Source: Hyperoplus lanceolatus (Eukaryota > Chordata > Actinopteri > Uranoscopiformes > Ammodytidae). From it: 64,000 nucleotides of DNA. Below the pieces are notes generated by a model. That model searched no databases, was not told the origin of the DNA, and was given only the letters and a program-made list of their open reading frames with translations. Within the stretch, counting starts at the first letter, position 1. Every line of letters starts with the position of its first letter. The stretch spans positions 19,557,001 through 19,621,000 of the forward strand of contig CM049416.1 of assembly GCA_026929865.2 (NCBI GenBank). The letters run 5' to 3'. This document shows positions 4,485 through 45,593 of this stretch, in pieces. Made by a program: the position numbers and the translations under genes.

Positions 4485-4690
4485 TAGGTGCAACGAGGAA
4501 TTTTTAAATATTTCAGAAACAGTGTTATTTTTACTCTGATGATCATCATCAATTTATATGGTTTTTCTTTAAGCGTTTGCCATGGGTACGCTCACCCAGG
4601 AACAACAACTGGCGTAGTAAAAACACTACCGCTTTTGTCCAAAGGGGGTGCAAGAATGAACACAAACTGAAAGTTCTTCGGAGCGCCTTC
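4485..4690 (-). mobile_element. MITE family A, copy 2 (reverse)
   Basis: Reverse-orientation copy of the 'ccgaggaac' family. It carries 'catgggtacgctcacccagg', 'actaccgcttttgtccaaag' and ends 'aaagttcttcggagcgcctt'. Both inverted ends are recognisable though mutated. Confidence 0.75.
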
Positions 4691-12242: not shown

Positions 12243-12449
12243 GAGCCCGGCGGGACCCACACCCCTCCCCAGCAGCTGAGCCCCTCGGTGGGGCAGGTCG
12301 GGTACACGGCGGGGGTCCCGGGTGGATCTCTGGACGTGCAGCACCTCATCATGCAGGCCGACGCGCGGCGCAGGCAGCGCAGCAACGACAACTACTTCGA
12401 GGACGTGCCGCGGTCCAAGCTGGAGCGACAGATGGCCCAAGTCAGCATG
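12243..12449 (+). CDS. anks1b: anks1b exon (linker before PTB domain)
   Basis: This 207-bp phase-0 exon encodes 69 residues from EPGGTHTPPQQLSPSVGQVG to SKLERQMAQVSM. The acceptor is 'ctcttgtggcag' and the donor 'atg|gtgaggag'. The ARRRQRSNDNYFEDVPRSKL segment matches the ANKS1B linker (mammals have ARRRRRSNDNYFDDIPRSKL), while the proline-rich front is less conserved. The linker joins the tandem SAM domains to the PTB domain and contains a strongly basic cluster (ARRRQR). The exon is GC-rich compared with flanking introns, as usual for constrained coding DNA in fish. If the donor is missed, translation would run 19 more codons to a stop at 12507-12509. Confidence 0.93.
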
Positions 12450-15901: not shown

Positions 15902-16027
15902 GCAGGCGAGTGGTGTGAGCCAATCACGTTGCGCCCGCCCAACGAGGCTACTTCGTCCACTCCGGTGCAGTACTGGCAGCATCACCCGGAGAAGCTCATC
16001 TTTCAGTCCTGTGACTACGAAGCCTAT
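15902..16027 (+). CDS. anks1b: anks1b exon (start of PTB domain)
   Basis: This 126-bp exon encodes 42 residues, [20 protein letters not shown] then [20 protein letters not shown] and AY. The acceptor is 'ttgtatttccag'; a second AG four bases later (15904-15905) would shift the frame, so the first AG is chosen. The donor is 'tat|gtgagtcc'. The sequence matches ANKS1B '[41 protein letters not shown]'-type residues immediately before and into the PTB fold. The PTB domain of AIDA-1 binds the APP intracellular domain and other NPxY-type peptides (family knowledge). A 102-bp TG repeat begins only 40 bp past the donor. Confidence 0.94.
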
Positions 16028-18751: not shown

Positions 18752-18823
18752 TACCTGGGCTCCATGCTGGTGAAGGAGCTGAGAGGAACAGAGTCCACAC
18801 AAGATGCTTGTGCCAAAATGAGG
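18752..18823 (+). CDS. anks1b: anks1b exon (PTB, first core strand/helix)
   Basis: A 72-bp phase-0 exon encoding the 24 residues [20 protein letters not shown] and AKMR. The acceptor is 'gtgtctctccacag' and the donor 'agg|gtaaag'. [24 protein letters not shown] is the beta1-alpha region of the ANKS1 PTB domain and is nearly invariant in the family. In mammals a 12-nt microexon can be inserted at the 3' junction; none was recognised here. The exon is flanked on both sides by copies of the same dispersed repeat (18177 and 18991) in direct orientation. Confidence 0.96.
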
Positions 18824-21757: not shown

Positions 21758-21844
21758 AAGTCAACAGAACAGATGAAGAAAGTGCCGACCATCGTGCTCT
21801 CCGTGTCCTACAAGGGAGTCAAGTTCATTGACGCAACGAATAAG
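21758..21844 (+). CDS. anks1b: anks1b exon (PTB core)
   Basis: An 87-bp phase-0 exon encoding 29 residues, [20 protein letters not shown] then VKFIDATNK. The acceptor 'gtgcgctctaag' has A at -3, slightly weaker than the usual CAG, preceded by a long CT tract; the donor is 'aag|gtaaca'. [29 protein letters not shown] is the ANKS1B form of the PTB domain; it covers the strands that precede the peptide-binding groove. Confidence 0.96.
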
Positions 21845-22249
21845 GTAACACACACACACACAGCTCACTGCCCGCTGTAAATAACATGTGAAAGGTCAGG
21901 CTTTTCAACACGGACAAGAGTGCGTGTGTGTGGCGCATCAGCACTAGTGTCTTGCTGCTTCTGCTGCAGCCTGACAGACTGACTGACTGAAAACCATATG
22001 GTGTTAAAATCAATAAGTGTGTAAAAGAGGACAAAACACACACACAGGCAAGAATCAGTGTGGAAGAGATTAAGGGAAGAATCAATAATAACCTCCTACT
22101 CAGTTCATTAAGCCCTTAATGGAATGTTTTAGAAGCTCATATGAGACTCATTACTTGAGGTATGTCTCTGCATACCTGTGAAAGACAATAGGAACTAAAC
22201 CGCCTTGGGTGGGTAAAAAAAGCCATCACATTTAAGAATCACTTTTACC

Positions 22250-22338
22250 CTGCGTTCCAAATCGCATACTTTTTCTTTTTTCTATTCCACTGGATTGTGG
22301 GTCAGAATCGCCCAAATAGCATGCTGATTTAAACAGGC
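22250..22338 (+). mobile_element. MITE family E, internally deleted copy
   Basis: 'ctgcgttccaaatcgcatac' joined directly to 'ccactggattgtgggtcag' and 'cgcccaaatagcatgctgat', so roughly the middle part of the full-length element is lost, as is the right end. Confidence 0.6.
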
Positions 22339-23040
22339 ATTATATGCTGCTTGATGAAAAAAATTAACTACATTTTTTTTGAAGCCTCTGTTATGCATCT
22401 CAAGAACACATACACATCAGAAGAGGAGCATCATTTTCAGATAGAACACTTTGAGGGGGAGCGTACACTACTGTATTTTCCCTCGTTCAATATTCAACAT
22501 AGTTTTTTGTTGTTTTTTTTATTTCTCTCAATTTACTGAAACTACACATATACTGATATCTATTTTACAGAATGAAAGAGAGAGATTACAAAAACAAAAT
22601 AAAAAATTCTTGATGTAAGGCCCTCATTAAAACTTTCTGAGCAAACTGCAAGCTGTTGGAGCCTTGACGTGGTTCTATTATTCACAGCACTGGGACGTGC
22701 TTTAATTAACACACCACCAAGCCGCAGTGTGTTCTCCAGTGACAAACTCAAACTCAGCGACTCCAGAAAACTCACCACAGTGTTAATGGTTTGAAATGAG
22801 ATGAATAATAAATTCAATTTGTTTTTCCATTGAAGCAGATCACTGGAGAGATAATTTAACAATCTGTTCAGTTATTAATATTATTTTACTTCATTTCTTC
22901 CCCAACACACCTCATAGACTCAAGTTGTTTCCAGTACTTACATTGTGTATTGTAGAATAATGTTCTTACCTACCTAGTTATTTATTTTTAATCTTTATAT
23001 TATTACATTGATAACTGTTATAGTTGGCTATACCTTGTGG

Positions 23041-23957
23041 CCTTAAAGCAGCAACGAGTAACATTTAAATATCTTTTAAACAGCCTCATGTTTCCTCTCA
23101 TAATCATAAATTACCTTTAACAGCAAACGAGACCATCTGTGCAAAGAAAGACTTTTTTATATAGTTTTTATTACTGCATTTGATCTGGTCGTACACCCAG
23201 TCCGATTTTCGGTTCACGCGTGCATGCTCTATGGTCACATATCCGTATTGGTCGCAGATTTCAGGGCGGCGCAGGAACGCGATTTGAGAAGCCTATGGCT
23301 CCTGGTGAGGGAAGGGGAGCGGGAGCCTTGTTTGAGACAGTTGTTTGTTCATAATGACTGATAACGGGGCTGAACCATCAAAGAAAAAAAAGAAAATGCA
23401 ATGAAGAAAAGCTAAAAGGGAGAGTGATAGGCGGGCGGGAGGGCGTTGCCAAGCAACGTATACACAATTTCACGCAGCGAACCTAGACTGCAGTGTTTAC
23501 TCCTAAATGAATGAGCGGTAGCCTACTAAAACAAAGTTTACTTTGCCTCACCAGCATCATCAGATGACCATTATTCATCTGAAATAGTCATTATTTACAA
23601 CATAAACACATTACTTCATCGTGATCCATACTAACTAACTGCCATCTCTTGTTCATTCGCTTGGTGTGAGGACACGGACTCGTTCAGCTCCGTGAGAGGT
23701 GACAATGCATCAACTCATTGCAATCAGGTGTGTTTAGCACTTACTGCCATTAGTTGATGCTGTGTCACCCATAGACTCACAGAGCCGAAAAGAGTCCGGT
23801 GCCCTCCACACTTTCAACACACGGACACGCACCATATTGCTTCCTGATTATTTGAATCTTGCACTCCCTGCACGAGCTTGAAAACAGCTTCACGACAGCT
23901 GGCGTCGTTAAAATACTACCGCTTTTGTTCAAAGGTGTCGCCAACGTGCCGACTAAC
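23041..23957 (-). mobile_element. Long relative of MITE family A
   Basis: The left end 'cttaaagcagcaacgagtaa' and the right end 'ctaactcgtagtggctttaa' are inverted repeats matching MITE A tips. 'acagcaaacgagaccatctg' and 'aatactaccgcttttgttca' are MITE A internal motifs near the two ends. Between them are about 700 bp absent from the short copies, including CpG-containing sequence. It may represent the longer ancestor from which the short MITE arose, or a MITE with a later insertion; I see no transposase frame in it. Confidence 0.6.
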
Positions 23958-23997
23958 TCGTAGTGGCTTTAAGCACATATTTTTTTTACACTTGTTT

Positions 23998-24095
23998 CTC
24001 TCAACGTGTTTTTCTATACTGAATTGGAGCAACTATAACGAAACGAATTTCCCCTCTGGGATCAATAGAGTATTTTTTGATTCTGATTCTGAATT
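23998..24095 (+). mobile_element. Truncated LINE 3' tail
   Basis: 'gaatttcccctctgggatca' and 'atagagtattttttgattctgattctga' fit the widespread fish LINE 3' end that closes in short tandem TTCTGA units. The 5' boundary is unclear. Only the end of the element is present. Confidence 0.55.
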
Positions 24096-24108
24096 TCTCT
24101 TTCTGTAT

Positions 24109-24147
24109 CCGTAGAACATCATAGCTGAACATGAGATCCGTAACATC
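24109..24147 (+). pseudogene. Duplicated head of anks1b PTB exon
   Basis: 39 bp identical to 24257-24295: the last bases of the intron with the acceptor 'ccgtag', then 33 bp encoding [11 protein letters not shown]. The upstream pyrimidine tract also resembles that of the true exon. Reading continues in frame into MITE sequence to a TAA at 24205-24207, with an overlapping AATAAA at 24203-24208. It could act as a decoy acceptor or truncated terminal exon; no evidence of use is available from sequence alone. Confidence 0.85.
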
Positions 24148-24229
24148 AACACACTTATGAATATTATATTCCATTTCTACCAAGTCTGTTCCGAAAAACA
24201 CCAATAAATTCTACACACTGCACCTTTAA
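24148..24229 (-). mobile_element. MITE family B end
   Basis: Reverse complement of the left end of the element at 45594: 'cacttatgaatattatattc', 'tttctaccaagtctgttccg' and the terminal 'ctacacactgcacctttaa'. Only one end is present. It separates the duplicated exon head from the true exon. Confidence 0.75.
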
Positions 24230-24262
24230 TAATTTTCTTTCTTTCTCTTTCTCTTTCCGTAG

Positions 24263-24400
24263 AACATCATAGCTGAACATGAGATCCGTAACATCTCGTG
24301 TGCGGCTCAGGATCCAGAGGACCTGTCTACATTTGCCTACATCACCAAAGACCTCAAGTCAAGTCACCACTACTGCCATGTCTTCACTGCTTTTGATGTG
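24263..24400 (+). CDS. anks1b: anks1b exon (PTB, peptide groove)
   Basis: A 138-bp phase-0 exon encoding 46 residues, [40 protein letters not shown] and FTAFDV. The acceptor is 'tctttccgtag' and the donor 'gtg|gtcagt', a weaker donor (C at +3). The [34 protein letters not shown] block is the strand that lines the PTB ligand groove and is nearly identical to mammalian ANKS1B. A 39-bp duplicate of its start lies 148 bp upstream, and a family D MITE begins 40 bp after the donor. Confidence 0.96.
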
Positions 24401-24835
24401 GTCAGTCCATCAAGACACTGTCTGTCTGTTTGTGCAGGTTTTAAAGGTGGAGTCAGCGATTTTTTTTGCCCCCCAGCGCACACACAGTACTACGGAAGAG
24501 TATTAGGGCCACAGGGGAGAAAAGAAATTTTTTTTTTGTTTTTGTTTTTTAATAATGTTTTATTATGCATTTCTATGCTCTATTCGACATTTTGAGAATA
24601 AAGACGAAATACAACATTGAGAAGGAGGGAAAAAAGTATACTCATACTCTTCAATACAGCACTGACAGGTATTGGATCATGAGGATACATTCACTGACTT
24701 CGACCTAAAAGTAATTTGGACAACAAGCCTTCTCCAGTATCACTCACTCCGACTGTAATTGAGCTAAAGATCATATTATCCTATAGTATCAAACTGCCTT
24801 CTCACGCCTGTCTTCCCCCCATCCCCTGTTATCAG
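24401..24835. other. Short anks1b intron filled by a MITE
   Basis: This 435-bp intron is mostly a family D MITE at 24440-24760, leaving 39 bp after the donor and 75 bp before the next exon. Confidence 0.7.
24440..24760 (+). mobile_element. MITE family D, intron-filling copy
   Basis: Left 'ttaaaggtggagtcagcgat' and right 'tctccagtatcactcactcc' are imperfect inverted repeats of each other, as in the copies at 29953 and 20731. The middle includes a T-rich run and the 'acaagccttctccag' motif. Confidence 0.65.
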
Positions 24836-30463: not shown

Positions 30464-30577
30464 ATGGAGCAGCCGTCCATGGAGCAGAAAGGCCACGCCA
30501 ACGTGCCGTGGATAGTGGAGCCGGGTCAGGAGGCCAAGAGAGGAGTCAACACCAAGTACGAGACCACTATTTTCTAA
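30464..30577 (+). CDS. anks1b: anks1b terminal coding exon
   Basis: The acceptor is 'gtctctctatcag' and the exon starts in phase 0. It encodes 37 residues, MEQPSMEQKGHANVPWIVEP then GQEAKRGVNTKYETTIF, and TAA at 30575-30577. The EQKxxANxPWIVEPGQEAKRGxNTKYETTIF tail is the ANKS1B C-terminus. The final ETTIF has Thr at -2 and Phe at 0, a class I PDZ ligand pattern, consistent with reported association of AIDA-1 with PSD-95 (from memory, unchecked). A possible internal donor GTACGA at 30556 would remove KYETTIF; see the alternative exon at 31835. Confidence 0.95.
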   Translation: MEQPSMEQKGHANVPWIVEPGQEAKRGVNTKYETTIF

Positions 30578-45100: not shown

Positions 45101-45593
45101 ATATGTTAATGAGCAAACAATTATCAAAAAAATGATTTGAGAAATAATTCCTTTTGTTTTTTATTCATGATTAACAGTATATGTTGTGTGTTTCAAATGA
45201 GTCCATGTGTCCCATCACTTGCTCATCATATCTGCAGCCGTTAGAGTCTTAAAGATCATCTGCTTTCATCCCCACCCAAAGCTCTTTATGTAACGACTCT
45301 ATGACGAGAGGAGAAGTTAAGGAGCTCAGATTTGGTATTTAGCTTTGAGTTTTGTTCAGCTCTCTCGGATGCTGTGTAAAACAAGTCCTGCATCTTGGGA
45401 CCTTATAATCTGATCAGTGCACATAATGCATATCCCAGCCGCAAGATAAAACTGACTGTCTCTGCACTCACTCAGCCTTAACCCTAGAACACTAATGCTT
45501 AGGAAAATATTTAAAAAGTGCTGCCGAACTTTAGGGGGCTTGCAATTTCCCCTCCGGCTGCAACGGATCTTGTTCATGGGTGCAAAACCAAAT

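Follow-up and report, generated by a model that had tools for sequence, protein, structure and literature searches.

In Hyperoplus lanceolatus, the beginning of an exon that encodes part of a PTB domain occurs twice, each time with its own 3' splice site, and the end of a miniature transposable element (MITE) lies between the two copies. Which of them, here called A (upstream) and B (downstream), is the ancestral exon start, how did the other one arise, and which of the two acceptors would be used? The DNA analyzed, referred to here as the window, is a stretch of 64,000 nucleotides on contig 22 of the 807-Mb genome (G000:C22:19557001-19621000).

The duplicated exon head of ANKS1B

By sequence similarity, the affected gene is ANKS1B, a fish brain-scaffold gene whose 3' part lies on the + strand of the window. 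Its exons at 12243-12449, 15902-16027, 18752-18823 and 21758-21844 each have a length that is a multiple of three, and the last of these, with the donor AAG/GTAACA, lies 5' of the intron considered here. The PTB exon, its start taken at the acceptor of copy B, occupies 24263-24400 (46 codons; donor GTG/GTCAGT), and it is followed on the same strand by the next PTB-coding exon (24836 to ~25006, the right limit being approximate) and by a final coding stretch that ends at 30574. Exons 21758-21844 and 24263-24400, both multiples of three, join in frame. In comparison with the solved ANKS1B PTB domain (PDB 2m38, 8ym2), 45 of 45 query residues of the PTB exon were aligned, and the exon corresponds to residues 82-126 of 2m38 (E = 2.9e-26).

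The initial annotation had described an exact 39-bp repeat of this exon head 148 bp upstream; the repeat and its spacing were borne out, while its length was measured as 40 bp (24108-24147 and 24256-24295, 148 bp from start to start). The repeat takes in TCCGTAG, the end of the acceptor, and 33 coding bases (11 codons), so that the duplication spans the 3' splice site, as in intron gain by boundary-crossing duplication. With two mismatches allowed, it grows to 54 bp (24094-24147 and 24242-24295), and both mismatches fall in the polypyrimidine tract, where A has two purines and B has pyrimidines. Copy A, at 24094-24147 on the + strand, thus comprises a polypyrimidine tract, an acceptor (AG at 24113-24114) and 11 codons; copy B, on the same strand at 24230-24295 (66 bp from the MITE end to the end of the repeat), comprises a tract, an acceptor (AG at 24261-24262) and the same 11 codons.

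In a direct-repeat scan from which low-complexity sequence was filtered, the A/B pair was the only exact repeat of at least 40 bp at a spacing of 40-1000 bp in the window. The scan also covered 20 sampled 10-kb stretches, which total 200 kb and include 2,500 N, and found such a repeat in three of them: L040, as a tandem array, L032 and L048. The A/B repeat is not a chance match, but small duplications of nearby sequence are in themselves nothing unusual. The array in L040 (positions 1-2850) is a diverged one, with spacings of 60 bp and longer, and could encode a repetitive protein.

The two copies differ at 0 of 40 positions (2 of 54 over the longer repeat), a result that still allows, at 95%, a divergence of up to 7.2%. 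Homogenization of the copies, which the initial annotation had put forward, is therefore not needed to account for their identity. That the repeat is an artefact of assembly seems extremely unlikely: distinct sequence separates the copies, the window is free of any N, and the whole structure is presumably shorter than a long read.

Mobile elements beside and between the copies

The 82 bp between the copies (24148-24229) form the terminal fragment of a MITE, here MITE-1, on the - strand, with its true terminus at 24229, on the B side, and a truncated end at 24148, on the A side. Its terminal sequence is common to many copies in the genome (40 were scored of 1825 candidates, the window itself included), the best other scored copy being 95% identical over the 82 bp. 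Compared with the majority sequence of 27 further copies (one at 45592 of the window, the others at 26 loci of the genome), the fragment has 3/82 differences. Among the scored copies there was no exact source from which it could have been donated, the nearest differing at 4/82 positions. The opposite MITE end, TTAAAGGTGCAGTGTGTA, was present with at most 2 mismatches in 10 of the 26 other loci, 97-471 bp further on, in a search for which many of these loci held only ~500 bp upstream. For the fragment itself, no opposite terminal inverted repeat was detected within 600 bp upstream, the best match having 8 mismatches of 18. TTAA is present at its remaining end, and the other end is missing. By these features MITE-1 here is a truncated end rather than a whole element.

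Read from copy A, the coding frame runs into the MITE end, where a TAA at 24205-24207 lies within an AATAAA at 24203-24208 on the + strand; here our analysis agrees with the initial annotation in every position. An AATAAA ~20 bp before the MITE terminus is found in the family majority and in 13 of the 27 other copies, a share that is biased upward because these copies were picked by their likeness to the window piece. The signal, judged from these alignments, is a property of the MITE-1 family, and MITE-1 copies that lie in introns in sense orientation may thereby contribute poly(A) signals.

We also considered whether long flanking duplications are a habit of this family, and rejected the idea: an abutting exact repeat of at least 12 bp was found in 0 of the 27 other copies, in a search reaching at most 500 bp upstream and thus short of the left flanks of longer copies. 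L015 and L027 contain repeats that do not abut the MITE. By eye, similarity to the family interior is lost within a few bases of the window's truncation point in L007, L015, L016, L022 and L028, a coincidence that is hard to judge, as the matches were selected by that end.

Upstream of A lies a retroposon-like repeat on the + strand, delimited by BLAST against its relatives in the genome and by alignment. Its 5' piece (22903-23046, the left limit being approximate) is separated from its 3' piece (23973-24093) by a MITE-like element of ~920 bp, MITE-2 (23047-23968, limits set by eye), which is bordered by TTAA at 23043-23046 and 23969-23972. The 3' piece ends in GATTCTGATTCTGA at about 24093, and the tract of copy A starts directly behind it, with nothing in between. 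The 3' piece also supplies a CTGAT that is a branch-point candidate for A.

We read this repeat as a probable retroposon because its 3' end is fixed whereas its 5' end varies. Forty relatives were scored of 133 candidates genome-wide, and the best-scoring of these, the window aside, were 84-85% identical. The tail contains two GATTCTGA-type units in the window, as it does in ~4 of 11 aligned relatives; the remaining aligned relatives mostly have one unit or a changed one. The two pieces together differ from the family majority at 37/246 positions; within the 3' block, the window has 17/115 differences, and the relatives' own range is 9/115 to 18/114. The only candidate for a target duplication, found by eye, is the 6-bp ATTTCT; TTTCTCT (23996-24002) was dropped as a candidate since it falls inside the retroposon. 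MITE-2, taken with its TTAA borders (23043-23972), has ends that form an imperfect inverted repeat (AGC..ACGAGT, read by eye), and a relative with ~86% identity over 331 bp lies in L003. A 44-bp block beginning CTGGCGTAGTAAAAACACTACCGCTTTTGTCC is present at positions 4602, 17264, 23892, 27478, 45011, 48089 and 50455 of the window, on both strands.

Polarity and origin of the duplication

We put at about even odds (a probability of roughly 0.5) the reading in which A is the ancestral start of the PTB exon, 148 bp later entered that exon, and acceptor B rescued the gene. We infer this polarity and mechanism from the observed structure, reading frame, retroposon abutment and divergences. The central argument is that A directly adjoins the 3' end of the element that appears older: the retroposon differs from its family majority at 37/246 positions, compared with 3/82 for MITE-1, while the two exon heads differ from each other at 0/40 positions or, over the longer repeat, 2/54, and A is thus probably the ancestral exon start. 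Distance from a family majority serves here as a rough clock, and is a distance rather than an age. Had A been neutral intronic sequence since before the retroposon landed, ~6 differences would be expected in its 40 bp, and the probability of finding none would be 0.85^40 = 0.0015, which makes such a history very unlikely. Had A instead been copied in recently, its left junction would need to have fallen on the retroposon end by chance; an ancestral A, kept by selection until recently, would avoid both problems. The stronger tract of B, the lack of long abutting repeats in the 27 other MITE-1 copies and the single copy at the paralogous exon also speak for this reading. The initial annotation had taken A for a copy placed in the intron, and the abutment of the retroposon argues for the reverse order, A being the likelier original. 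Against our reading, the polarity depends on one abutment and on distance from a majority that may mix subfamilies; in the 3' block, the window is no further from that majority than some of its relatives are, and the retroposon's target duplication is a 6-bp candidate at most.

The events could have been as follows. The ancestral exon start, A, would have sat just behind the 3' end of the old retroposon when a staggered break, or an aberrant one-ended transposition of the MITE, caused 148 bp to be inserted behind codon 11 of the coding exon. This insert would consist of the 82-bp MITE end and, as a filled-in overhang, a second tract, acceptor and exon head. With acceptor B in place, A, the MITE end and the B tract would all be handled as intron by the spliceosome and the protein would be unchanged; the intron boundary would have shifted 148 bp downstream, leaving A as a weaker decoy acceptor. 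The orientation of the fragment, with its true terminus toward B and its truncated side toward A, looks as if one end had been joined to a filled-in staggered cut, and joining of a MITE end to a cut with filled overhangs would explain why the terminus faces B. Duplications at breaks with overhangs have been described, and those reports likewise explain small local tandem duplications by staggered breaks, though here an inserted MITE fragment lies between the copies (PMC5730883, PMC8355091). From the MITE terminus to the first position that surely belongs to B there are a further 12 bp, which may be target sequence, filler or an expansion of TTTC. These 12 bp count against an ancestral A, as does the fact that MITEs with a TTAA target normally duplicate 4 bp rather than 54-66.

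The opposite order is that B is ancestral, MITE-1 having inserted normally ~33 bp upstream of the exon, and that the MITE later broke and its repair, by a polymerase-theta-type or template-switch process, removed the rest of the element and inserted A, templated by the exon head close by. For an insert of either kind 54 bp is long; the left junction must also fall by chance exactly on the retroposon 3' end, and by eye the exon head and the MITE share no microhomology where A meets the MITE. Yet an intact MITE terminus toward B is what ordinary transposition would leave, and inserts templated from at most 250 bp away from a break are among those described in the cited work (PMC5730883). We regard this order as doubtful, though as the likeliest of the rivals. 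An apparent longer match between B and the site as it presumably was before the retroposon landed was discarded as low-complexity chance (10/14 positions, P = 0.047; 11/32 overall, P = 0.61, by shuffling).

A third scheme, a simple 148-bp tandem duplication of MITE end, acceptor and exon head whose upstream side then eroded, would fit the spacing, which equals the length of the MITE end plus the copy B segment. However, the sequence at 24000-24086 is retroposon and not MITE, there is no MITE-1 match elsewhere in the affected intron, and the retroposon appears older than the MITE. On this relative age we rejected the scheme, which we consider very unlikely.

The nearest known case appears to be the potato RdRp gene, in which a tandem duplication across an intron-exon boundary created a new intron (PMC4974935). 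In that case, too, the duplicated segment includes the 3' splice site and the head of the exon. What becomes intron is exonic sequence of the upstream copy together with intronic sequence of the downstream one, and branch site, tract and acceptor are inherited. In the fish gene, by contrast, a MITE end lies between the copies, the simplest outcome would be an old intron extended rather than a new one, and splicing is predicted from sequence. Intron gains with flanking direct repeats have been ascribed to end joining of uneven breaks, and they share with this locus direct repeats that overlap splice sites around inserted DNA; in that work, repeats of 8 bp or more were counted and no parental origin was found for the inserts, whereas the ANKS1B repeat measures 40-54 bp, its insert can be identified as a MITE end and the host is a vertebrate (PMC2809761). 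Introners, too, are DNA-transposon sequences with a target duplication able to supply a splice site, but those described are multi-copy, with duplications of 3-9 bp in some families (PMC9860276), and the piece found here is truncated and belongs to a family without long flanking duplications. By the tests made, namely the truncated end and the lack of an abutting long flank duplication in the 27 other copies, the fragment does not appear to be an introner. Among the titles and abstract openings covered, there was no precedent for a vertebrate boundary-crossing duplication with mobile-element filler, which does not show that none exists.

A gene is normally broken by an insertion into one of its coding exons. 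Should A be ancestral, the insertion seen here would have brought its own remedy: the duplication made during repair would have extended over the splice site, so that the inserted DNA became intron at once. Intron insertions are described as very rare in vertebrate evolution, with some reported in ray-finned fishes (PMC3151243), and a young fish example with readable splice signals and filler would therefore be useful for testing break-repair models of intron gain and intron sliding.

Predicted use of the two acceptors

Splice signals were judged by simple filters and scoring matrices. Acceptor A, with the CTGAT 29 nt upstream and 14/17 pyrimidines, is by these measures a credible 3' splice site. 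For acceptor B, the tract has 16/17 pyrimidines and an uninterrupted stretch of 26 of them, and a TTAAT at -34 lies at the MITE terminus. Apart from these two, no site in the 2.4-kb intron passes the acceptor filter, which is strict and lets through 2 of 6 recognizable native acceptors. Since the B tract is stronger than the A tract, B should win over A, and normal protein is the predicted result. The decoy acceptor would also offer a natural setting in which to see what weight tract strength and order have in the choice between 3' splice sites that are almost the same and lie at a distance of 148 nt.

If A were spliced and the exon continued to 24400 (donor at 24401), the stop would lie ~195 nt before the junction, and we predict that such a transcript would be subject to nonsense-mediated decay. 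A stop at this distance ahead of a junction makes a standard substrate for that pathway.

A combines an acceptor, an in-frame stop and an AATAAA, the makings of an alternative terminal exon, and the initial annotation had accordingly called it a ready one. A working exon of this kind would involve splicing from 21844 to 24115, cleavage near 24220-24240 and an ANKS1B cut inside its PTB domain. The fit of frame, stop and AATAAA, the credible acceptor and a T-rich stretch after the AATAAA speak for it. Against it, the 3' untranslated region would be only some 15-30 nt, and of the 26 acceptor-like sites counted over both strands of the window, 3 (A included) are followed by a stop with AATAAA, so that the combination behind A appears not clearly beyond chance once an acceptor exists. 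The claim of a ready terminal exon is weakened further by the protein searches. These covered a database that includes fish proteins, in which clusters at 90% identity could hide a truncated form and this species is possibly unrepresented. Words of the MITE-encoded tail occurred in none of the 120 readable of 155 protein matches to the short form, and a search directed at the tail (proteins of 418-1330 residues) gave a single match among 1440 candidates, an ordinary ANKS1B of Sphaeramia.

The predicted product of A and the AATAAA would end after residue 92 of 2m38 plus 19 foreign residues, which upholds the earlier expectation that it would stop inside the PTB domain, and it would be without beta5/beta6, beta7 and alpha2. 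The PTB cleft is described as drawing on beta5/beta6 and alpha2 (PMC3683042), and the absence of these parts also counts against a functional terminal exon. TAF8s, an intronic poly(A) isoform at a transposon edge that was expressed and tested, likewise has its signal at the edge of a mobile element and yields a truncated product (PMC12871804); in ANKS1B, the signal is a candidate read from the sequence. We consider a working terminal exon improbable, and a shortened ANKS1B protein is a possibility only.

A hypothetical 79-bp intron (24184-24262, + strand) would run from a weak donor in the MITE, CAA/GTCTGT, to acceptor B; with A used, it would give the PTB domain an in-frame insert of 23 residues. 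The 69 added nucleotides would keep the frame, acceptor B is strong and has its branch-point candidate at the MITE terminus, and the layout resembles the potato RdRp intron gain (PMC4974935). The donor at 24184, however, scores 2.3, against 5.5-9.0 for the five other ANKS1B donors scored in the window (by a scoring matrix), an insert would disturb a highly conserved domain, and among the protein matches read none had such a form. A gained intron of this sort is highly improbable. We regard as quite improbable, too, the full scenario of a recent vertebrate intron-boundary shift in which the exon was split by an aberrant MITE integration, the duplication made during repair at the same time supplied a replacement 3' splice site, and some of the transcripts lose the 79-bp intron by splicing and gain 23 residues in frame.

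The paralogous exon on contig 10 (L002, 1501-1658), whose translation resembles fish Anks1aa (P0034), has a single acceptor; no duplication was found within its 3.2-kb locus, which contains one copy only. In an ANKS1B-like protein of Cynoglossus (P0080), an additional Q stands just ahead of the PTB exon-start residues, which suggests a tandem (NAGNAG-like) acceptor at the same boundary in another fish.
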